From NCBI RefSeq assembly GCF_000426765.1, contig NZ_AUFZ01000022.1:62001-126000 (forward strand): DNA of 64,000 bases, written 5' to 3'. This document shows positions 28,383-40,032 of the stretch, one piece after another; the stretch's first letter is position 1; every line of letters begins with the position of its first letter. A model generated the notes under the pieces. It made no database searches and was not told the origin of the DNA. It worked only from the letters and a program-made list of their open reading frames with translations. Made by a program: the position numbers and the translations under genes. The DNA comes from Vibrio litoralis DSM 17657 (GTDB lineage: Bacteria > Pseudomonadota > Gammaproteobacteria > Enterobacterales > Vibrionaceae).

Positions 28383-29546
28383 TTATAAACACATCTCATC
28401 AACATACTGCTTTATCGACTTTTGCCCTTTTTCTGTCACTTTCAATTCTTTATATAATTTATCAAGCGGATAATCAGACAAGGCGACTAAACGAGCGAGT
28501 ACCCAAGTTTGAGTATGGTCTTGATCTAAGCCTTTTCGCGTTGCTTCATTCCACGCATCGTTGAGGGTGCTATCGGAAGTTGAAATTTGCCTAATAAGAT
28601 CGGGGCTGTAATTCCACAACAAACGTTGCAGCGCATATTGAGGTGAAGATTTATCTAACTTAATTGCCCGATCAGGTACAGGTGGCTTGTCCTCCCAGCA
28701 ACGATAACTAGCTTTGGGCGGTTCAGGCTTAACTGGCTCGACCCTTGGGTTAATTAATTCACCTTGGTCGTTGTAGTCATTAATGGAATAGACATGGGTA
28801 ATATCTTTTCGCCAATAGGTTTTATTGACTTTATCCCAAGGGATTGGAAACAGAGGATAGCCTAGATCATTGGCTTGTTTTTGACGATTAACAAATACAT
28901 CATATACAGCACTTTTTTTATAAGTATCAACGCCAAAACCTTCATAATCCTTTTGCATAGTTTTGAACGGTTCAAGTTCCCCTACGTAGATATAATCTAA
29001 GCACCCCGACAACCACACTTTAACATGACCATTGGGTAACATCCCCAATGAAAAATTATTGATATAGCAAGGAATATCACTTCCTGCATATTGATAAGAT
29101 TTTTTTTTCAACATCAAAGCTTTAATCTTGTCTGATAAATCAAACTTGGTGACATAAAATTTTAAATCGTGCATTGACGTCCAGTACACATAAATCGAAT
29201 CCGGCAAATGATTGGTTCCACCTATTTGGGCAGGAGCGACGCCAGCACCTGGATTTAAAGCAATTCCAAAACCGTCATAATTCGGAAACCATTGTTGAAT
29301 GTTTTTTAAGTTATTAAAATTAGACAGTTGAGAGTAACTAAATAAAACGCTTGTCCAATCTTCTTGTTCATTGATGCCATAAGCTTGACTCACCTCTACA
29401 TTATAAAAACTAGGTGTCGTCACCCCGATACTCCATTTAGGCTTGTCTTTGGGTACTTCCGGCACCTTACTGAACGCGCCACACGGTAACGAGACTAGCG
29501 TCAGTAACAGTAACGATCGTTTACACTGTCGGATCATATTGTTCAC
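28383..29546 (-). CDS. DUF2931-family protein, probable periplasmic immunity to the Tle1 lipase
   Basis: A protein of about 387 residues with an N-terminal hydrophobic signal (KRSLLLLTLVSLPCGAF) that sends it to the periplasm or makes it a membrane-attached protein. The middle part carries DUF2931-type landmarks (KWSIGVTTPSFYNVEV; LPDSIYVYWTSMHDLKFY). DUF2931 proteins are repeatedly found beside type VI lipase effectors as immunity proteins. The GTG at 29546 is chosen because AAGGAG lies nine bases upstream; it lies inside the end of the lipase gene, so expression is coupled. An alternative ATG at 29537 gives nearly the same product. Neutralising the Tle1 lipase in the periplasm is inferred. 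Confidence 0.7.
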   Translation of the reverse strand: MNNMIRQCKRSLLLLTLVSLPCGAFSKVPEVPKDKPKWSIGVTTPSFYNVEVSQAYGINEQEDWTSVLFSYSQLSNFNNLKNIQQWFPNYDGFGIALNPGAGVAPAQIGGTNHLPDSIYVYWTSMHDLKFYVTKFDLSDKIKALMLKKKSYQYAGSDIPCYINNFSLGMLPNGHVKVWLSGCLDYIYVGELEPFKTMQKDYEGFGVDTYKKSAVYDVFVNRQKQANDLGYPLFPIPWDKVNKTYWRKDITHVYSINDYNDQGELINPRVEPVKPEPPKASYRCWEDKPPVPDRAIKLDKSSPQYALQRLLWNYSPDLIRQISTSDSTLNDAWNEATRKGLDQDHTQTWVLARLVALSDYPLDKLYKELKVTEKGQKSIKQYVDEMCL

Positions 29547-31590
29547 GGTCAAACGCTCCTTGTGCGTTAGTATTCGGGTGGTTGGCAATGCCATCATCCG
29601 ATGAATGATGAATTAAGCTATAACGCATAAAAGCATCTAAAAATTTGCTCGAAGACAAGTAAGTCGTTAGCTCACCAATGTTGCCTTGTTTGCTCATTTG
29701 CAGTATAGAGTCACACAGCTTACCAAAGATCATGCTAGGGTTGTTTTGAGTGCAACTAATTAACTCAGGTACTTTGTACTTATGCTGCTTTGGATCTACC
29801 CATACGGAAATAGATGAACCTGCTTGATATTCCGTCAAAGGCACTTGCATTGATTCAGCCAGACCGTACATTACCCGTAAGTACAAACGCGATAAATCGC
29901 CTTGCACAAGTCGTTGTAAATACAGCTCTCCAATCATTTGCTGTTGGTCGTTTTTTCCTCTGCGCGGCCCTTTTTCTATCGAAATAAAATAATCATCACG
30001 ATTCCAACCTTGCACCACTTCTTGTTCCAATGATGTTTGCAACTCTTGCTCTATTCGTTGTTTGACATTATTAACGTCAAACCGAGGACAATCACGAACA
30101 ATACGTTTAATACGCTTACGCTCAACAAGCGGTAACAGGTATTCCGTTTGATCAAATGCATATTGCGAATAATAGCCGCCCCCCACATCGGAGTGCGCAC
30201 CATACACCATGATTTCATGGAAGTTATCAGCGGGATTTAGCTTATTGCTACTAAAGTTATAACGATACTCGGTTTTTGGGGAAGCGGTTAAATGCACCGC
30301 ATGGCGTACTCGCTGTGGATCCAGCCATAAACGAACATCACCGTTATCCTGGTTATGCGGGGTAAAATCTAGAGAGCTAAAATCGGCAATCGCTGCCACA
30401 GTATCAAACAATCCCACAAAGGTGGCTTCACAATGCTCATTACTGCTCCAATCAAAGCCCGCTTGCAACGCTAACTTAGTTTGTTGGCACGCTTCAACAA
30501 ACTTAGGCACAAATTCGCCTTGCTCACCATCGAGTGCCACATTAATAAAATGACGAGCAGCAGCGGCTCCGCGACTAAAGCCAAATACATCCAATTCAAC
30601 TTTATTAATCCCATCAATAGGGGTCGATATTAGATTTCTCATTGTAGTGGCAACTGAATCAAAATGATCATTTAAGTTTTGAATGCTTGTTGTGACTTTG
30701 GCTTCTACACCATATTCACCTAACCCTAATGCTTGGCCTTTTAGTGATTCATCCGCTTTAGCAATATCGGTGCTATTACCTGTGCCAATACCAGTGATGT
30801 ATTCCGGATGATAAAACACTGTCTGATCTTGGTTAAATTTATCTGTAATATAGCGTTCGTACAACTTTTGAATATTGGTCAATTCATTGGCGGCACTGCT
30901 TGCCACTTTTTCATCATCCTCCCAGAACCAATAGAAATCGTCTTGATTTGGGTATTGATAGGTCTCCGCTTGCCAATCTCTTACTGGCTTGTTGCCTTCT
31001 AAATTCTTTCGAGATTTCCAGTGCAGATAATACTTTTCTAACTGTTGCTTACCCCATTGTGCGCTGTAGGTGTTATTGGCAGTACCATCAAAAAACAAGC
31101 CAAAACGCAGGGTAATATAATTAAACCCTTGCACGCACAACACATGGCATTTATCAGTAACAAGCTGACCGGTTAGTTTACTTTGGGCTTGGTGGCGTTT
31201 GGGGAGATCTTGAGCTTGTTCGCCGATTAATAAGTCTCCGGCAGTCACATTGATACGAGCTCGCTCTCCATTATTATGACCTAGCGGCTTTTGTGTGATC
31301 CATTCATCTACTGGGTTGCTTTCTGACTCGTTGATTAACGGTCTACGTTGCTGTGATTGTTTTAACCACCCTATCGGATCGAGTTCTAACGTCACAAAGC
31401 CTGAAGGAAGACCGCTTACAACAGTAGGAGCATGGTTTAAAAGAATCGGATGACGAACACCTTCTGCATCAATTAACTCACCTTTTACATTATCAAAAGG
31501 TTGATTGTGCTCATCGACTACCATTAACTCAATCCAGTGAGTTCGGTTTTCACACACTGTGCAATGTGGACTTAACCCTAGCATTCCCAT
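29521..31590 (-). CDS. Type VI secretion lipase effector, Tle1/DUF2235 family
   Basis: A 689-residue protein. The first ~110 residues look like a beta-sandwich (transthyretin-like) accessory domain with a CTVC pair. From about residue 166 a DUF2235 alpha/beta-hydrolase begins with FFDGTANN. A likely triad is visible: Ser339 in GFSRG, Asp396 in VGLFDTVAA and His466 in GAHSDVGGGY. Tle1 enzymes are injected into competitors and cleave membrane phospholipids. The start at 31590 follows AAGGA with nine-base spacing and overlaps the upstream DUF4123 gene by 13 bases. No VgrG, Hcp or PAAR gene is nearby, so delivery would rely on a VgrG elsewhere. Confidence 0.82.
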   Translation of the reverse strand: MGMLGLSPHCTVCENRTHWIELMVVDEHNQPFDNVKGELIDAEGVRHPILLNHAPTVVSGLPSGFVTLELDPIGWLKQSQQRRPLINESESNPVDEWITQKPLGHNNGERARINVTAGDLLIGEQAQDLPKRHQAQSKLTGQLVTDKCHVLCVQGFNYITLRFGLFFDGTANNTYSAQWGKQQLEKYYLHWKSRKNLEGNKPVRDWQAETYQYPNQDDFYWFWEDDEKVASSAANELTNIQKLYERYITDKFNQDQTVFYHPEYITGIGTGNSTDIAKADESLKGQALGLGEYGVEAKVTTSIQNLNDHFDSVATTMRNLISTPIDGINKVELDVFGFSRGAAAARHFINVALDGEQGEFVPKFVEACQQTKLALQAGFDWSSNEHCEATFVGLFDTVAAIADFSSLDFTPHNQDNGDVRLWLDPQRVRHAVHLTASPKTEYRYNFSSNKLNPADNFHEIMVYGAHSDVGGGYYSQYAFDQTEYLLPLVERKRIKRIVRDCPRFDVNNVKQRIEQELQTSLEQEVVQGWNRDDYFISIEKGPRRGKNDQQQMIGELYLQRLVQGDLSRLYLRVMYGLAESMQVPLTEYQAGSSISVWVDPKQHKYKVPELISCTQNNPSMIFGKLCDSILQMSKQGNIGELTTYLSSSKFLDAFMRYSLIHHSSDDGIANHPNTNAQGAFDREQYDPTV

Positions 31591-32375
31591 AATGCGGTTT
31601 CCTTTTCTAGCTGTTGTAGTTGCTGTACGTCTTCATGAGTCAGTAATAATGCTTGTGCCAGCGAGGCGTAATCGGTTTGTGTTTGTTGAGAGAATTTAAC
31701 CAGCGCAAAACTTTCGGCTTGTTCGAAATCGTTGCCATGCTCTAAGGCTTGCTGCAATGCTTGTTGAATAAAGATGAGTGGCGAAGCCAGCTGGCACATT
31801 TGATCGGGTAGTTTTTCCCATAAGCGACGTTCAATCACCTTTGCATGATGCGCAACTTGATAAGTTGGAGCGAGGTGGTAAGGTTCCATTTTCCACCATG
31901 GTTGGTTTTGCAATTGATATTCAAGCTGGCTCGTGTTGCGGTATATCTTCAATTCATCATCTTGTATTAACACCAACTGTTGTGCATTGCCTAGCCAAGC
32001 GTTGATTTCACTTTGTGTGAAGGTAGGTAAAACAGCGGCTAATACGTTTTTATCGTAATAACGAAATAAGACTTCCTCTCCATCCATTGCCACAAATAGC
32101 AAACTTCTTAAATGCACTACGACATCCCAAATGGGCGCATTACTGACGATTACCATGCCTTGTGAAAACGTGGAGGGTTCAACATTGTTGAATGAATCTT
32201 GTATCGGAATGAGCCAAGGAGATAGAGGCATAACCTCTTTAAAAGATTCACCATGAAACAAAGGCAGCGCATCGTTAAAACCAATTTGCTGATTTTGTTT
32301 TATCGCTTGCTGATGAAGCTCGTCAGTCGCTAACCAATAGGCATTAGCTTGCTGACAGAACCATGATTTGAGCAT
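31578..32375 (-). CDS. DUF4123-family type VI effector chaperone/adaptor
   Basis: A 265-residue protein with the DUF4123 outline: an N-terminal part with ANAYWLATDEL, a middle with the LRSLLFVAMDGEEVLFRYYD stretch, and an acidic C-terminal extension. DUF4123 (Tap/TEC) proteins bind effectors and load them onto their VgrG or PAAR carrier without being secreted. Its stop overlaps the start of the Tle1 gene directly downstream, which fits a dedicated adaptor. The gap upstream (32376-32643) contains only the terminator of the nfr operon and its own promoter region. Confidence 0.78.
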   Translation of the reverse strand: MLKSWFCQQANAYWLATDELHQQAIKQNQQIGFNDALPLFHGESFKEVMPLSPWLIPIQDSFNNVEPSTFSQGMVIVSNAPIWDVVVHLRSLLFVAMDGEEVLFRYYDKNVLAAVLPTFTQSEINAWLGNAQQLVLIQDDELKIYRNTSQLEYQLQNQPWWKMEPYHLAPTYQVAHHAKVIERRLWEKLPDQMCQLASPLIFIQQALQQALEHGNDFEQAESFALVKFSQQTQTDYASLAQALLLTHEDVQQLQQLEKETALWEC

Positions 32376-32565: not shown

Positions 32566-32600
32566 AAAAATGCCGCAAATTCTCATCTGCGGCATTTTTT
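32566..32600 (-). terminator. Terminator of the wecB-nfrB-nfrA-ybcH operon
   Basis: AAAAATGCCGCA pairs with TGCGGCATTTTT around a ten-base loop, with T-runs on both strands. Its stem and loop nearly repeat the malG terminator at 40001, on the other side of the nfr operon. Confidence 0.85.
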
Positions 32601-32643: not shown

Positions 32644-33549
32644 TTAATCGCCCAGTTTCAATGGATTATTCAAAACGGGTAAGTAACGTAATGAGAAAAG
32701 ACTGGATAGATGACAAGATGTATCACTTCGTACTTGTTGATACTCTTGTTTCGTCAATCTACTTGCGGAAAAATCGGTATCGTCCGGATTTTGCTTAAAA
32801 ATCTCTTCTATTCTACCAATATTACAGTCTAATGAATTTAAATAATCTAACCTTGTTTCATCTTCTAAACTTCCAGTTCCAGCACCATCTTGAACAAAAA
32901 CAATTAAGCCAATATCAGATAACTGTTGTGTCCACTCAGCCATTTCATCTGGAGTAATAGTGCCGGACATATACAAACTAATCATCACTGGGTGTTGATA
33001 AAATTTGAGTTGTTGGGCAAGCATCCGGTTGACCTGAGATCTCTGCTGTTTAGTCGAAAAATCATAATCGCTCAACTCTAGAGGGAAGTAAACTCCTTCA
33101 ATATGTTTATCATGTTGATTTAACCATGGTTTCCAATTTTGATATTCTTGTTTCATGGTTAAAAAGTATTGATCAAGATAACGAGCTTGTTGATTTATAT
33201 CACTATGGATAGCTTTAAAATAATTAGGATCTGAATACAAGCCAAACCATAAGGTAAGGTCATTTCCCAGAAGAACTTCGAACCGTTCAGCTAACCAACC
33301 AGTATTACCACCAAATTGTTCATCACCATACCGACTCCATTGAGTAATAACTCGGGTAATATTCTCTGTTGGCAATTGAGCAGAAAACCGCTGCCATTCT
33401 TGATCTGAAACGGATAAATCTCTATTTAAAGGTTGATAAAAAATGCCAACCTCTGTGCTTTTGCATCCTGTCAGAAGTAAGATGAAAATCGTAATAAAAT
33501 AGAATCGTCGGAATCTGAAACATTGTCGCTGTCGAGTACATGTTGCCAT
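32644..33549 (-). CDS. ybcH: DUF4434-type lipoprotein, YbcH-like, partner of NfrAB
   Basis: A 301-residue protein with a hydrophobic N-terminus ending in a lipobox (LLLTGC), so a lipid-anchored periplasmic protein. The body looks like a TIM barrel of the DUF4434 type (IFYQPLNRDLSVSDQEWQRF; ITRVITQWSRYGDE; LTLWFGLYSDPNYF). In E. coli ybcH follows nfrB and nfrA in the same order, supporting the call by synteny. The start overlaps the end of nfrA by 79 bases; no ATG, GTG or TTG lies nearer the signal peptide. Function is unproven; a sugar-binding or glycoside-hydrolase-like role on the NfrB glycan is possible. Confidence 0.7.
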   Translation of the reverse strand: MATCTRQRQCFRFRRFYFITIFILLLTGCKSTEVGIFYQPLNRDLSVSDQEWQRFSAQLPTENITRVITQWSRYGDEQFGGNTGWLAERFEVLLGNDLTLWFGLYSDPNYFKAIHSDINQQARYLDQYFLTMKQEYQNWKPWLNQHDKHIEGVYFPLELSDYDFSTKQQRSQVNRMLAQQLKFYQHPVMISLYMSGTITPDEMAEWTQQLSDIGLIVFVQDGAGTGSLEDETRLDYLNSLDCNIGRIEEIFKQNPDDTDFSASRLTKQEYQQVRSDTSCHLSSLFSLRYLPVLNNPLKLGD

Positions 33550-36527
33550 TCTAAACCTACCTCTGAATTAACTTTAAACCCATCATAATGAGTTTTATAC
33601 CATTCCCACGACCAGCTTAAACCAATACCTGCGAGTAAATCGGTCTGATTGTAATCTTCCAACTCGCTACTACTCCATTGAGTAAAAGCATAAGGGGTTA
33701 TACGCTGTAAATTATTATCAAATGTTTTGAATGTTTCACCTGCTTCATAACGCCCATATAAAGAGTATTTGTCATTTGAAGTTAAGTATACTAAAGCATC
33801 CAGATATAAATTTTGATAAAACCAATGCGACCGATTATCTTTCCAACCTTTGCTCCAATTATCATTGGAAAAGATATCAGAGCTTACTCTTAAGTAAGGT
33901 CTTGTATAATCATTTCCATTTATTGATTGCTTTATACCAAGCTTAAAATAAGTGTTATGGAAAGATAATGGTTGAACTTGGTAGGCAAGGTCAGCTTCTG
34001 CACCGAAATCATCCGGACTATCTGTTAATCCACTTTGCAAGCTCGATATACTTATCGCACTTCGAGGAACCCAAGGGTCTTCAAAAGTATATAACCCTTC
34101 TTCATATAAAAAGAAATTTCCGTCTGTAGATGAAAAACCAGGAACCGTTTGAACACGACTCTCACCTATCCAACCTGCTACAGTAAATTTCCACCCCAAA
34201 TCAATATCTCTATGAGCTTGTTGTAAATATTTCAATAGAGTTTGTTTTTGTTCAGTCATTGATCTTGCAGAGTAGACTTCATCAATAGCCGTCTCATACA
34301 ATAATTTAGCTTTAACTTCATTGCCATTAAGACCAGATACTCTTGCATATTCAGAAAGTAGTATAGGATCAGAGTGATATTTCGAATATGTATACGCATG
34401 AGAAAGTAACGTTTCTGCTTGCTCTGTATTCTTATTAAGTAGAACGTAACCTAATTCACTACTGGAATCTCCTGTTCTATCTGTCACTAATACTTCATTA
34501 ACCAAAGCATTTAACTTTTCTGTTTGCCCTGATTCTTGATAATGAAGCCCTATTTTCCTGACAATATCCGAGGAATGAGAAACTGAGAAGCCTTTCTCTA
34601 ATCGCTGATATGCAAGTTCTTTGTTATCTAAATTATCGGCAATTTTAAAGCCTAGTAACCACCATTGGTCATTTTGTTTATTAAAATTTGTTTTTCTCCA
34701 TAAAGAATCAGCCTGTTGCGTATACTCCATTTCATTTAATGTTGTAATATAAAGGTAACGGCTGTAATTATCTAAATTACTCAACTCAACATCTGACCAA
34801 TATTGGTAGCTTTTGGAATACTGTGAGGCAATTGCATACCATTTAGCGATAATAATACGCTCCGCTTCACTAGAAGAAGGCGTTAAAGTTTCAACATAGA
34901 GATCGGCTGCAGCACGTGTATCTTGAGCCGAAATACAATAAGCTTCTGCTTGTTTTTTATAATCGTGGCGTGGTGATATATCTTGGCTCAAGTCATCACA
35001 TTTTTTTTGGTTTTGCCAACTGGATGCTGGAATTTTACTTTCTAGTCTTAACTTAGTATTTAAAGTCTCTATAATTTGAACTGGAAATAAAGATACATCT
35101 TCATTAGCCAAAATTGCCACTCGTTGCACTAAATTATGACTAGTTAGAAATTCTGAAGATGAATATGAAAAAGATTCATTTAACATTTCAGCAGTTTCAA
35201 TTTTTCTATTTGGTAAATTCAATCGAGTATAAGTAGCAAAATCCACATCAGAAAGAACATGTTCTTTTTGATATAAAGTAAACATCAAATCGCTAGAACG
35301 CAGGTAATCTCCTAAGTGGGAATAAGCATAAGCTAACGTTCGAGTATGGCGAGATAATAATCTATTGTTATCCAGTAACTCCGTAATTTCTAACCATTTT
35401 TGTGTGTTTGAGTAGTAAGAAATCAAAATATCTCGGCGTTTATTCTCATATAAAGGCGTTTGAAATTTAGTACTTCTTAATTCAGAGTAAGCTTGTAATT
35501 GTTCTGCGACGGTAAGCCATGTATAGGGTGTATTTTTAGGAGAACAGTGAGAAAAATTAATTTTAGCTTCTTTTATTAAATTGGATAAAGTCAAGTCAAT
35601 CACTTTATTGAGGCAACTATCAATATTAGGTCCCTCTACTTCAAAATGGTTCAATTGGGTTGAACTGAGAGAATTGAGATAATCTCTTTGATTTTTCATC
35701 TCAGCTGTCAAAATGTTTGATTTATATAACCTATTAAGTTCACTTCTTGCTTCACTGAGTCGGCTGGCGTCTAATAGAGACGCAATGTAGCTTGCATAAA
35801 TCTTTTGTTTCCCTTGTTTAGAGGGAATGTCTTTCACTATCACAAGCGCTTCTTGATCTTGCTCTAATGATAAGTATAGTGAAGCAAGGTATTCTAAGTC
35901 TTTATCATTTTCTTGATTATTTTTCTTAATATTTTTTAAGATGCTCAATGCCTCTGGGTATTTATTACTACCAGATAAAGCATAAGCTTCATAACGTTGC
36001 GCACCTAAATTCTTATATTTTGTTTGCTGATTTAAAGCCCAGTTTAAAGCAGATTGACGGCCTCTTACTTTTTCAATTTGATATAAGTGATTTTCATACC
36101 ATGTTTGTGATTGAGTCTTCGATAATCCACTTGTCATTACATCGACTTCATGAGGCGTATATAACTTCCCTGACTTTGATTCCTTAATTCTAATTTCAAG
36201 TAAAAGGTTTCCACTATCTGGTTGCGGCAAACGCTCAACTAAAGCAATTAACTCTGAATCAGGTCTCCCTGCCAACAGACTCAATGTATAGGTGTACTTA
36301 ATATAAGGTGCATGATTTGGGACAATAACTAAGGCTCGTTGCATTTCCTCTAGAGCTTCATTGTATTGTTTATCATTTTCATCTCGAAAGGCTTTATCAA
36401 CATAAGGATAAGTACGAAAATGCTGGGAGTCTGTTAACCCTAAATAAATATCATCACTTGAAGAAAAAGCTTCAAAGCTTATGCACACAAAATACAATGT
36501 TATTAAGATCTTAGATAAAGATTTCAT
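33471..36527 (-). CDS. nfrA: Outer-membrane export/receptor protein, NfrA type
   Basis: A 1018-residue protein: signal peptide (SKILITLYFVCISFEAFSSS), a very long TPR-like helical periplasmic region (about residues 30-780) and a C-terminal beta-barrel (from about 790, with many alternating aromatic residues, ending LLRFSSYF). E. coli NfrA is the outer-membrane receptor of phage N4 and, with NfrB, secretes a ManNAc-containing glycan; the TPR-plus-barrel plan is like PgaA and BcsC. The ATG at 36527 follows AAGGA and begins the signal peptide; it overlaps the nfrB end by 17 bases. Strongly AT-rich. Confidence 0.83.
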   Translation of the reverse strand: MKSLSKILITLYFVCISFEAFSSSDDIYLGLTDSQHFRTYPYVDKAFRDENDKQYNEALEEMQRALVIVPNHAPYIKYTYTLSLLAGRPDSELIALVERLPQPDSGNLLLEIRIKESKSGKLYTPHEVDVMTSGLSKTQSQTWYENHLYQIEKVRGRQSALNWALNQQTKYKNLGAQRYEAYALSGSNKYPEALSILKNIKKNNQENDKDLEYLASLYLSLEQDQEALVIVKDIPSKQGKQKIYASYIASLLDASRLSEARSELNRLYKSNILTAEMKNQRDYLNSLSSTQLNHFEVEGPNIDSCLNKVIDLTLSNLIKEAKINFSHCSPKNTPYTWLTVAEQLQAYSELRSTKFQTPLYENKRRDILISYYSNTQKWLEITELLDNNRLLSRHTRTLAYAYSHLGDYLRSSDLMFTLYQKEHVLSDVDFATYTRLNLPNRKIETAEMLNESFSYSSSEFLTSHNLVQRVAILANEDVSLFPVQIIETLNTKLRLESKIPASSWQNQKKCDDLSQDISPRHDYKKQAEAYCISAQDTRAAADLYVETLTPSSSEAERIIIAKWYAIASQYSKSYQYWSDVELSNLDNYSRYLYITTLNEMEYTQQADSLWRKTNFNKQNDQWWLLGFKIADNLDNKELAYQRLEKGFSVSHSSDIVRKIGLHYQESGQTEKLNALVNEVLVTDRTGDSSSELGYVLLNKNTEQAETLLSHAYTYSKYHSDPILLSEYARVSGLNGNEVKAKLLYETAIDEVYSARSMTEQKQTLLKYLQQAHRDIDLGWKFTVAGWIGESRVQTVPGFSSTDGNFFLYEEGLYTFEDPWVPRSAISISSLQSGLTDSPDDFGAEADLAYQVQPLSFHNTYFKLGIKQSINGNDYTRPYLRVSSDIFSNDNWSKGWKDNRSHWFYQNLYLDALVYLTSNDKYSLYGRYEAGETFKTFDNNLQRITPYAFTQWSSSELEDYNQTDLLAGIGLSWSWEWYKTHYDGFKVNSEVGLEWQHVLDSDNVSDSDDSILLRFSSYF

Positions 36528-38721
36528 TGTTTTCCTTACTAAAAACTTCAATCAAACCTTTCATACTCTTTTGCTGTTCTTTTTGTAAGCTCAAAGCACG
36601 ATCAACTTGTTGCTTCGTTATATATTGATGCTCAATTAAAAACTCACCAAAAGAAAGTGTTGACTCATTTTCAAAAGCTAATATCGCTTGATTTAATACT
36701 GCAGGTTCAATCAAGCGTTCAGATAGCAAACATCGACCTAATTGACTTTGTGAAGATAAGTAAATATCCATTATCCACTGAGTTTGATTATCTTTTATTT
36801 TTCCGTCACATAATGCTTGCTTAAGTAAATCATCTGGATTATCCGATTCTAAATTTAAATACCAATACCGTATTCCTACTGTAACCGCACCATTAGTTGT
36901 AATAACCCATTTAATAGGCCTTTTTAACCTTCTTTCTATAGCAGCCAGCCCCACAGGACTCAGGGGTGATTCTTTTCCTAAAACCAAAGTATCCCCTTCC
37001 AGTCGTAACGGAATAACAGAATATTTTAATGCTAATTTTTTTGGGAAAATTTCGATAAGAGAATGGTCTAATGTATATGGATTACAAGCCTCGTACATTG
37101 CTTCATTTTGTATTGCAATTGCACGGCTTAATGCATCATTTGACACTAATTTATTAGAAACTAAGTAACTTCCAATTAGCTGATTGGATGGACAGTTCAA
37201 CAATGCCTCTTCTAATTCTTCAACCATAATATGGCCTGAATCAATTAATATTTGACCAATAGGTGTTTTTCTTGACTCTATTGATACTGAAGGGAAATCA
37301 TGCGTTGTTTTGTCCCATGCGACTCTCCTAGGATCTCCTTGTTCAATAACCTGCCTTATCGCTCGCACATTGGCGGAAAAGTTAATAATTGTCCCCCAAA
37401 ATAAACGTAACAAGGAGAGAGCTCCTTCCAAATAACCATAATATTGGCTAACAAAATAAAATCGTTGAAACAGCCGGTTTAAGAGTAAAAAAGTATTCAC
37501 AACTAATAATGTTTTAGCCATTGCACCTTCAGAGATAATAGATAGAAAGTGGTAACTATTATCAAACAAAGAGTATAACCCTAACCCCAACATTTGAACT
37601 AAAAGTAACATTGCAATAAAGCCAACCGTATTATTTATAACACCTCGCCTATCTCTCCATAAAAAATAATTAATTTTCCAATCTTTTGTCCATTTATGAT
37701 TTTTAAAGCCTTGGAATACAATCCCAATTATCCAACGACTTTTTTGCCTTACTGCTGTTGAATATGTAGTAGGAAAATACTCTCGAACACAAACCACACT
37801 TCCTTCGCGCATTGACACACCAAATGACTCCTCTTTTAAAGTCACCTGATCTTTGCCTATAACCGGAAAGCGTACAAAAACTTCATTCATTCCCCATTGC
37901 TTCAAACGAAAGCCTATATCGTAATCTTCCGTTAGTGATTGAACGTCAAAAGGTAAACCATCACCTTCGATTAAAAGCTTAAGTATTGCTTTACGACTAA
38001 AACAAGTACCAACACCAGCACTCGGCACTTGACCTGCAATAGCTTCACGTACGACAACATCTTTGCCATGTAGCTCAGCAAATTCATCAGCATAATGCCC
38101 CGGTGTCATTTGATACCACTTTCTTGTATATGGATAAACAGGTAATTGAATGAGATCTTTATTAGGTAATAGATAATTAAATAAGCGTAATTCCATGGAA
38201 GATAAGATATCTTCAGAGTCGTGCAAAATAAAGCCTGCGAATTCAACTTTTGCTTTTTTTTCAAATTCAATAATTGAACTAATCACATTATTTAAACAAT
38301 CGGCTTTACTAGTTGGTCCTGGACGAGCACAAACAACTTTATGTACATTTGGGAATTTATCACAAACCTTATCTACATCTTGTTGTGTTTCAGGATCATT
38401 AGGATAAGTACCAACAAAAACTTGGTAGTTTTCATAATCTAGACGAGAGGCCGCCAATTCAGCCATTTTATCGATTACACCATGTTCTTGCCATGCAGGA
38501 ACCATAATAGCTAAAGGTTGTTCTCTTTTTTCGTATAGTTCCGTAGCTTGTTTTCTTGAATATCGACGGTAAACGGTACTTCTGCGCCAAAATCGACGTA
38601 ACCAATAATACATATCGATAAATAGGTCATCTATACCGCAAAGGCATAGAATAACCATCACTACGATTAAAATAAATTTCAGACCATATAAATAGCTGAT
38701 GAAAGCATCAAAAATTGTCAT
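36511..38721 (-). CDS. nfrB: Processive glycosyltransferase with MshEN c-di-GMP motifs, NfrB type
   Basis: A 736-residue inner-membrane protein. It has one or two N-terminal membrane helices, a GT2 domain (LAIMVPAWQEHGVIDKM; HDSED near 167; TEDYD near 264; the processive-type RQKSRW near 325) and further membrane helices (360-450). The C-terminal third carries MshEN-like motifs at about 487 (IGQILIDSGHI), 515 (IGSYLVSNKLV), 661 (LGRCLLSERLI) and 691 (FGEFLIEHQYI), the pattern that binds c-di-GMP in MshE and NfrB. E. coli NfrB polymerises ManNAc from UDP-ManNAc when c-di-GMP is bound. It overlaps wecB by 14 bases and nfrA by 17, so all are coupled. Confidence 0.85.
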   Translation of the reverse strand: MTIFDAFISYLYGLKFILIVVMVILCLCGIDDLFIDMYYWLRRFWRRSTVYRRYSRKQATELYEKREQPLAIMVPAWQEHGVIDKMAELAASRLDYENYQVFVGTYPNDPETQQDVDKVCDKFPNVHKVVCARPGPTSKADCLNNVISSIIEFEKKAKVEFAGFILHDSEDILSSMELRLFNYLLPNKDLIQLPVYPYTRKWYQMTPGHYADEFAELHGKDVVVREAIAGQVPSAGVGTCFSRKAILKLLIEGDGLPFDVQSLTEDYDIGFRLKQWGMNEVFVRFPVIGKDQVTLKEESFGVSMREGSVVCVREYFPTTYSTAVRQKSRWIIGIVFQGFKNHKWTKDWKINYFLWRDRRGVINNTVGFIAMLLLVQMLGLGLYSLFDNSYHFLSIISEGAMAKTLLVVNTFLLLNRLFQRFYFVSQYYGYLEGALSLLRLFWGTIINFSANVRAIRQVIEQGDPRRVAWDKTTHDFPSVSIESRKTPIGQILIDSGHIMVEELEEALLNCPSNQLIGSYLVSNKLVSNDALSRAIAIQNEAMYEACNPYTLDHSLIEIFPKKLALKYSVIPLRLEGDTLVLGKESPLSPVGLAAIERRLKRPIKWVITTNGAVTVGIRYWYLNLESDNPDDLLKQALCDGKIKDNQTQWIMDIYLSSQSQLGRCLLSERLIEPAVLNQAILAFENESTLSFGEFLIEHQYITKQQVDRALSLQKEQQKSMKGLIEVFSKENNEIFI

Positions 38722-39778
38722 AAAACACTCGTTTAATTTTATTTAAAATTATTTTAGATGCGTCCCCATTTCCATATGGATTAATTACATCGTTAGTCTT
38801 ACCCAATTCCAGTAGTGATAACGCAGATTCAACAATTCTACTTTCATCTGTTGCACCTGATAAAAGAGATAGACCTAGGTGCAATGCTTCTGGTCTTTCC
38901 GTAGTTTCTCTTAACACTACTACTCTCGTACCAAAAGTTGGAGCCTCTTCTTGTATACCTCCAGAATCTGTCAATATAAGCGGTGCACTAAGTAATACTT
39001 GTTGTAATTCCACATAATCTAAAGGATCAACTACATCGACAAAATTACAGTCAGCAAGGTTGTCAATAACGGCCTGTTTAACTTTTGGGTTTGGGTGAGA
39101 TGCAAATAAAAATTTCAAATCTGGTTTATGTTGTGCAAGATTTTTCAATGCCTTACAGATGGTTGGTATTGATTCCCAATTTTCTCGACGATGAGCAGTA
39201 ACGAGTACTGTATTTCCTAGCTCTTGACTTAACACTCCACTCTCTATTAAGTACTTTTGAGCATCAATGGCTGTATTTCCAGTAACCAAAATTGCGGATT
39301 CATCAATACCTTCTTTTAATAAAGCTAATTTAGCGGACTCAGTAGGTGCAAAGTGTAAGTTCGCAATTTTTCCAACTAATGTGCGGTTAGACTCTTCAGG
39401 GAAAGGATGTTGTAAATTGCCAGAGCGCAACCCTGCTTCTACATGACCAATAATTGGAATATGATTATAAAAAGCAGCCATTGCTCCAGCAAGTGTAGAA
39501 GAAGTATCGCCATGCACTAAAACACATTGGTATTTTTTCGTATGTAATATATTTTCTACACTTTTCATTAAACCGCCAAGTAAATCAGTTAAACTTGAAC
39601 CCTTTGGCCGATCTAACATATAAGTTGGTTTAATTGAAAAAACGTGAAATGTTTGTTCTGCTAACGAATCATGTTGACCAGTATGACACCAATCTACATT
39701 CATATCCTGCTCTTGAAATGCCTTATAAACAGGTGCCATTTTTATTATTTCAGGTCGCGTACCTGTTACAATTAACAC
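38708..39778 (-). CDS. wecB: UDP-N-acetylglucosamine 2-epimerase, dedicated to the nfr glycan
   Basis: A 357-residue non-hydrolysing epimerase making UDP-ManNAc from UDP-GlcNAc. All family landmarks are present: TGTRPEIIKMAPV at the N-terminus, HTGQH, VHGDTSST, GHVEAGLRSG, the PFPEESNR loop, VTAHRRENW and TDSGGIQEEAP with RETTERPE. The start is uncertain: a GTG at 39778 gives the normal family N-terminus, while a TTG at 39808 would add ten residues and has no ribosome-binding site. First gene of the operon, overlapping nfrB by 14 bases. In E. coli wecB sits in the enterobacterial common antigen cluster; here it is fused by position to nfrBA, pointing to a substrate-supply role. Confidence 0.9.
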   Translation of the reverse strand: MLIVTGTRPEIIKMAPVYKAFQEQDMNVDWCHTGQHDSLAEQTFHVFSIKPTYMLDRPKGSSLTDLLGGLMKSVENILHTKKYQCVLVHGDTSSTLAGAMAAFYNHIPIIGHVEAGLRSGNLQHPFPEESNRTLVGKIANLHFAPTESAKLALLKEGIDESAILVTGNTAIDAQKYLIESGVLSQELGNTVLVTAHRRENWESIPTICKALKNLAQHKPDLKFLFASHPNPKVKQAVIDNLADCNFVDVVDPLDYVELQQVLLSAPLILTDSGGIQEEAPTFGTRVVVLRETTERPEALHLGLSLLSGATDESRIVESALSLLELGKTNDVINPYGNGDASKIILNKIKRVFYDNF

Positions 39779-40000
39779 ATTTGATTCATTACATTTCCCT
39801 ACCAACAAATGACAAAATTAAAACATCAACAATAAAAACAAAGAGTCAGACTCAAATTTCCAGGCATTATAATGTAACAATACCACGAATTGGTGACCGT
39901 AATCACACTTGTAATAAGTTTTATGTATCAATAAAGAGAAATCATCACAAATATTAATAAGCATCAATATGCCATCGTTTTTCGTAGATTTTACACTTAC
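39779..40000 (-). other. Presumed promoter region of the nfr operon
   Basis: About 220 AT-rich bases between wecB and the malG terminator. No convincing -35/-10 pair, activator site or small gene was recognised. It must hold the promoter of the wecB-nfrB-nfrA-ybcH operon. Confidence 0.4.
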
Positions 40001-40032
40001 AAAAAATGCCGCAGACTCTCATCTGCGGCATT
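40001..40032 (-). terminator. malG terminator
   Basis: AATGCCGCAGA pairs with TCTGCGGCATT around a six-base loop; on the minus strand a T-run follows. It ends the malEFG transcript, 40 bases past malG. Confidence 0.85.

Follow-up and report, generated by a model that had tools for sequence, protein, structure and literature searches.

The DNA examined is a window of 64,000 nt from Vibrio litoralis DSM 17657 (GCF_000426765.1, NZ_AUFZ01000022.1 positions 62,001-126,000); coordinates below are those of the window. Its ORF list places four genes on the minus strand in the order wecB, nfrB, nfrA and a ybcH-like (DUF4434) gene, with the following features:

40002 to 40030, minus strand: terminator-like hairpin between an ABC-transporter permease ORF and wecB (pattern match)
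38708 to 39808, minus strand: wecB (nfrC-type), UDP-GlcNAc 2-epimerase (TIGR00236; WecB clade; sole other match in the genome 31% identical)
36511 to 38721, minus strand: nfrB, GT2 synthase of the processive type, with membrane helices and a C-terminal MshEN region (NfrB model, fold, invariant residues)
36514 to 37281, minus strand: NfrB tail, residues about 481-736, with motif pair 1 (486-541), the MshEN C part (548-622) and motif pair 2 (655-716)
33471 to 36527, minus strand: nfrA, ATG start, TPR-containing outer-membrane export protein of the phage N4 adsorption protein A family (NfrA_C)
32644 to 33549, minus strand: ybcH-like DUF4434 lipoprotein with the lipobox LTGC, predicted to be TIM-barrel glycosidase-like (DUF4434, lipobox, model)
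32566 to 32594, minus strand: terminator-like hairpin past the operon end, near-identical to that at 40002-40030 (pattern match)

The original prediction, made from the sequence alone, was that the four genes overlap successively by 14 (wecB/nfrB), 17 (nfrB/nfrA) and 79 bases (nfrA/DUF4434 gene), and the minus-strand coordinates agree with all three values. There are two candidate starts for wecB, TTG at 39808 or GTG at 39778. No diguanylate cyclase or acetylation gene is found among the window ORFs within the operon.

Family assignments followed from model searches. WecB scored 364 bits against Epimerase_2/TIGR00236 (cut-off 210), the model of the non-hydrolysing UDP-GlcNAc 2-epimerases, so that an epimerase of the WecB type is available to the Nfr system from the adjacent gene. 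NfrB matched GT2 Pfam families and MshEN (PF05157, 37.8 bits, cut-off 23.1). The product of the adjoining gene, NfrA, matched NfrA_C (PF13283, 50.6 bits, cut-off 25), with TPR_19 reaching 21.9 bits but not its cut-off, also 25, and the YbcH-like protein matched DUF4434 (75 bits, cut-off 30). Against the equivalog models of NCBIfam, which are E. coli-centred, NfrB (PRK11234, 1074 bits, cut-off 1170), YbcH (PRK09936, 213 bits, cut-off 344) and above all NfrA (PRK09782, 81.5 bits, far under the cut-off of 1223) missed the cut-offs and thus fit only the broader families. The family and MshEN matches bear out, by homology, the earlier reading of the locus as a c-di-GMP-controlled glycan system of the Nfr/NGR type with a built-in substrate supply.

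We aligned NfrB in 66 rows (65 of the 79 references plus V. litoralis). The residues of the processive GT2 active site, D168, T264-E265-D266 and Q326..R329-W330, were invariant in all 66. VIA fold matches for full-length NfrB included an archaeal mannosyltransferase (Z 24.3), BcsA (Z 21.5) and hyaluronan synthase (Z 21.1); these matches span residues 6-480 and barely cover the MshEN tail. Profile positions 481-620 match solved MshEN domains, such as that of V. cholerae MshE (5htl, E 1e-13). The tail holds four MshEN-like motifs, in pairs at 486-541 and 655-716. Pair 2 was aligned to pair 1 by hhalign with a probability of 98.5%, compared to 0.8% and 0.3% for two control segments, and the predicted helix pattern repeats between the pairs. 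On a c-di-GMP motif model with a cut-off of 38, the tails of the E. coli (L057) and V. litoralis proteins scored 45.7 and 40.5 bits, and those of two other relatives fell below the cut-off at 26.0 and 36.7 bits.

The c-di-GMP-binding MshEN motif is RLGxx..LxxxLxxQ, of 24 residues, according to the portion of PMC5013675 available. Motif 4 of NfrB is near canonical (Gly in 60/66 rows, Gln in 61/66). Motif 3 is degenerate: its Arg place is taken by Leu or Met in 51/66 rows, while Gly occurs in 29/66 and Gln in 2/66. Motif 1 deviates too: Pro replaces Arg in 33/66 rows, and the Gln place is occupied by Arg or Lys in 46/66 and by Cys in V. litoralis. The prediction had counted four MshEN-like motifs and had named a failed alignment to MshEN as one of its two refuting tests. 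Alignment was obtained (5htl at E 1e-13; pair 2 at 40.5 bits), and the four motifs are present. That they are special to the V. litoralis protein was rejected, since the E. coli protein has four too. E. coli NfrB binds c-di-GMP (PMC8669469, PMC8669472, each from a partial text), and V. litoralis NfrB may sense c-di-GMP through its two MshEN motif pairs.

We then considered gene order in other genomes. Contigs were scanned with six short peptide patterns of V. litoralis NfrB, and the best 80 of 96 matches gave 79 loci, which are no census. Among these best 80 of 96 matches, wecB lies adjacent upstream of nfrB on the same strand at 41 loci, spread over several proteobacterial groups, out of 76 assessable ones (those with at least 1.1 kb upstream; L008, L058 and L084 were left out for too little upstream sequence). 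In the same best 80 of 96 matches, nfrA stands directly behind nfrB at 74 of the 75 assessable loci and ybcH comes next after nfrA at 68 of 70, the exceptions being L075 and L086, the latter a locus where NfrA was also not seen. The nfrA and ybcH counts imply that the order of the nfr genes is not due to chance. All four genes occur in order in Vibrio, Photobacterium, Enterovibrio, Aeromonas, Halomonas, Betaproteobacteria and Rhodanobacteraceae, and a linked wecB is missing from 26 of the 29 loci that record titles assign to Enterobacterales, again among the best 80 of 96 matches. Within the genus the system is patchy, with an nfrB match in 1 of 36 other genomes searched.

The four-gene order that the prediction proposed to seek in relatives therefore recurs in Vibrio and in other groups, and the genes are not separate in all of them. 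Two of its emphases did not hold. It had called the operon a self-contained Vibrio version; a Vibrio-specific wecB-nfrB order was rejected on the count of linked loci just given, and the linkage is published: it forms a section heading in the available part of PMC8669469, which states that all organisms found without wecB in another pathway have wecB beside nfrB. It had also set the lipoprotein beside the Nfr genes as a candidate glycan-processing or anchoring part; as an added part it was rejected, being YbcH, the third gene of the E. coli nfrBA-ybcH operon (PMC8669469, same partial text). The central inference, that substrate supply is linked to nfr, is thus already published in general form, and the V. 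litoralis operon, which looks intact, is an ordinary example of a system already known. The analysis adds some modest but testable detail in the form of the trees, the second pair of motifs and the predicted glycosidase.

Compared to E. coli nfrBA-ybcH, the V. litoralis operon is alike in three genes and their order, in the overlap of nfrB and nfrA (17 bases, against the 14 given for E. coli in the accessible text of PMC8669469), in its GT2-MshEN synthase and in the epimerase class for the substrate. It differs in that wecB (NfrC) belongs to the common-antigen operon in E. coli and to the nfr operon here, and that YbcH carries a lipobox, which the YbcH of E. coli record L057 lacks. NfrB is 53% and YbcH 28% identical between V. 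litoralis and L057. The three-gene operon of E. coli should not be taken for the norm, as wecB adjoins nfrB at more than half of the assessable loci (41/76, best 80 of 96 matches). In the accessible parts of the respective papers, wecB also stands beside nfrB in Pseudomonas soli (PMC8669469) and in Achromobacter xylosoxidans, where nfrA, nfrB and wecB are clustered (PMC8669472); unlike other wecB-linked loci, the V. litoralis operon is without a diguanylate cyclase or acetylation gene.

In a genome of the same genus (G032), an nfrB of 474 aa (L146:8170-9594) ends before the MshEN region and is immediately followed by nfrA; it would encode a synthase without the c-di-GMP tail, and the WecB match of that genome is on another contig. 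Photobacterium sp. GB-56 (L018, 2-13142) has tandem nfr operons, wecB-nfrB-nfrA-ybcH and then wecB-nfrB-nfrA to the end of the stretch; their WecBs share 67% and 64% identity with that of V. litoralis. An in-frame stop breaks nfrB in Vibrio rumoiensis (L008:2-2191), Hafnia alvei (L036:7905-10211) and E. coli (L053:7983-10226). This recurrent breakage suggests a cost of the Nfr system, of the kind that PMC8669472 (seen in part) reports for E. coli.

The YbcH-like protein was aligned in 65 rows (64 of 70 references plus V. litoralis). By a simple pattern, a lipobox is present in 8 of the 10 Vibrionaceae members and in 2 of the 55 others (Oleiagrimonas, with the pattern inside the signal peptide), so it appears from these sequences to be mostly a Vibrionaceae trait. 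An AlphaFold2 model built from the 65 rows is a TIM barrel with a pLDDT of 93.7. The putative alpha-L-fucosidase 4h41 was the top match for both Foldseek and VIA (VIA Z 20.0, rmsd 5.0, 251 aligned). In VIA it was followed by a GH164 beta-mannosidase (Z 15.8, rmsd 3.5, 246 aligned), the C-terminal (hydrolase) domain of E. coli PgaB (Z 15.6, rmsd 3.4, 244 aligned) and further glycosidases, in a search where 833 of 999 chains reached Z 8, as for a common fold. In the model, E143 (ORF residue 158) lies close to where strand 4 ends and is conserved in 65/65 rows; E234 (ORF residue 249), ending strand 7, is conserved in 64/65. Aromatic and Gln residues are among the invariant positions as well. A glutamate closing strand 4 and another closing strand 7 typify clan GH-A.

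It is quite possible that YbcH is instead a TIM-barrel protein without catalytic activity, serving as a scaffold or binding the polymer. The E. coli authors suggest a periplasmic putative scaffold protein, and the phenotype there is mild, with YbcH dispensable for N4 infection and its deletion restoring motility only partly (PMC8669469, as far as the available text goes). The 65 members gave no clear glycosidase family match, only weak Pfam ones (Cellulase in 2/65, best E 0.038), the YbcH alignment, searched by sequence against solved structures, gave no match, and below 4h41 Foldseek ranked mostly other TIM barrels (methanobactin MbnB, TglHI, an isomerase, a flavin enzyme), not glycosidases. 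DUF4434 is not mentioned in the literature collection searched, and the words "hydrolase", "glycosidase" and "lipoprotein" are absent from the available main text of PMC8669469, the only paper that often mentions the E. coli gene among the 20 listed of 22 YbcH matches in that collection. Against a scaffold stand the near-complete conservation of both strand-end glutamates, the invariant aromatic and Gln residues, and the glycosidases heading the VIA list below 4h41. The PNAG, Pel, cellulose and alginate synthases come with glycosidases or lyases in the periplasm (PMC9384988, partial text). Together, the predicted TIM barrel, the strand-4 and strand-7 glutamates and these periplasmic enzymes of other systems argue for an enzyme over a scaffold, a reading to which we give about even chances, and on the strength of the model YbcH may trim the Nfr glycan. 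If YbcH is indeed a glycosidase, it would offer the means to cleave the glycan and work out its structure.

The PNAG (PgaA/PgaB) and cellulose (Bcs) systems share this architecture of a c-di-GMP-gated synthase, a TPR porin and a periplasmic glycosidase-type protein, and the YbcH model resembles the PgaB hydrolase domain at the Z of 15.6 reported above. In those systems c-di-GMP is sensed by PilZ or PgaCD. By contrast, Nfr senses it by MshEN, uses a different sugar and has a YbcH without a deacetylase domain.

The V. litoralis operon is very probably a complete Nfr/NGR synthase-dependent exopolysaccharide system, with a WecB-NfrB-NfrA route and YbcH as a putative glycosidase. Cytoplasmic WecB would convert UDP-GlcNAc to UDP-ManNAc, which the inner-membrane processive glycosyltransferase NfrB would polymerise once c-di-GMP is bound by its C-terminal MshEN region. 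NfrA, which combines a TPR arm in the periplasm with a barrel in the outer membrane, would export the chain. The YbcH-like protein, probably lipid-anchored, would most likely act as a glycosidase in the periplasm, trimming the chain or clearing it away, a role ascribed to PgaB and AlgL in other synthase systems. WecB, NfrA and NfrB are required for phage N4 infection in E. coli, where the Nfr surface glycan is the receptor of that phage (PMC8669469, PMC8669472, both in part), and we infer from sequence that the V. litoralis copy works as the E. coli Nfr system does. A different product, such as a mixed or later modified polymer that is not ManNAc-only, seems unlikely, if well within reason: according to the available text of the same two papers, the ManNAc-based polymer is postulated even in E. 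coli and not isolated, and other nfr loci include acetylation genes. However, the epimerase alone is co-encoded with the V. litoralis synthase genes, and the operon holds no further same-strand ORF of at least 90 aa.

We also examined the phylogeny of WecB, a comparison with the wecB of other pathways that the prediction had called for. A first tree held 84 epimerases (42 linked, 30 unlinked, 2 near and 10 NeuC-like), and a more careful tree of 73 rows left out the NeuC-like rows and L106. Both exclude L117-L139 as copies of linked rows, matches shorter than 280 residues (the split gene of L016 and the cut first copy of L018) and matches without a locus from the 60-relative and 46-genome searches; L116 was set as linked by hand, the V. 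rumoiensis contig breaking there. In both trees 37 of the 42 nfr-linked WecBs, that of V. litoralis included, form one group, which in the 73-row tree is a clade with support of 100/99. All 42 lie on one side of a branch of that tree supported at only 62/82, and those outside the clade are from Halomonas (L078, L080), where the tree carries a long-branch warning, and Enterobacteriaceae (L025, L052, L064). The 37-row clade points to a dedicated epimerase, and V. litoralis WecB is by inference dedicated to nfr. It is highly improbable that this wecB is a recent recruit from an O-antigen or common-antigen locus and a mere convenient neighbour, an origin that we rejected: those pathways use the same enzyme class and the five linked WecBs outside the clade indicate that swaps seem to happen, but V. 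litoralis WecB lies inside the clade, the best WecB among 60 other relatives searched is only 46% identical, and 0 of the 20 WecB-class tree rows from these relatives join the clade, with four further matches unplaced. A dedicated, nfrB-tied epimerase lineage supports UDP-ManNAc as the Nfr substrate.

The genomes of 46 of the 79 loci were searched for WecB, and all 46 have some match. In the 19 searched genomes where nfrB has no adjacent upstream wecB, a WecB at least 40% identical was found in every one. At L050, L051, L056 and L083 a convergent WecB gene lies just downstream of ybcH, and at L085 and L086 one lies about 2 kb upstream of nfrB. A further WecB of at least 40% identity is carried by 8 of 27 linked genomes (L008 counted as linked despite its contig break), so linkage also occurs where the genome has a second WecB. 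In Enterovibrio coralii (L016:6734-7893) the linked wecB is split over two frames, and another WecB-class gene of 44% identity lies elsewhere in the genome.

The only other epimerase match of the V. litoralis genome, at L147:6145-7275, scores 229 bits against the general wecB model, above the cut-off of 210, and could therefore be a second source of UDP-ManNAc. It lies between a glycosyltransferase gene and genes for WbcJ (553 bits, cut-off 500) and an FnlA-like protein (617 bits, below the cut-off of 730), which form a 2-acetamido-sugar synthesis cluster, and we take it to be an FnlC-type enzyme. From this neighbourhood we set it aside as the UDP-ManNAc supplier, although its passing the wecB model counts against doing so, and the operon wecB is likely the UDP-ManNAc source of the genome.

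In an NfrB tree rooted on L085 and L086, the linked state changes 6 times and is found in Vibrionaceae, Aeromonas, Rhodanobacteraceae and several beta lineages. This is consistent with an early wecB-nfrB linkage followed by loss in Enterobacterales, an order of events that depends on a root flagged for long branches. We tentatively propose, as a joint reading that is possible but less than probable, that YbcH represents a new glycoside hydrolase family for the ManNAc-based Nfr glycan, controlling chain length or clearing trapped polymer; that the four-gene operon with its own epimerase clade is ancestral and was lost by Enterobacterales once the common-antigen WecB served; and that NfrB possibly senses c-di-GMP via two MshEN pairs.

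The operon is flanked by the twin hairpins at 32566-32594 and 40002-40030, which might mark an inserted block. The pattern was derived from the same two sites it matched, and the shuffle control is therefore not independent; a general terminator scan reported the 40002-40030 hairpin on the plus strand only and did not list the other. The permease ORF before the 40002-40030 hairpin is presumably malG-like. Rfam and tRNA scans of the 64-kb window found none, and a plasmid search returned 30 records, every one below 60% identity. Adjoining the operon at 28383-32375 on the minus strand are genes for a DUF4123 chaperone-type protein, a Tle1-like phospholipase effector and a DUF2931 protein, a group suggestive of a type VI secretion effector module.
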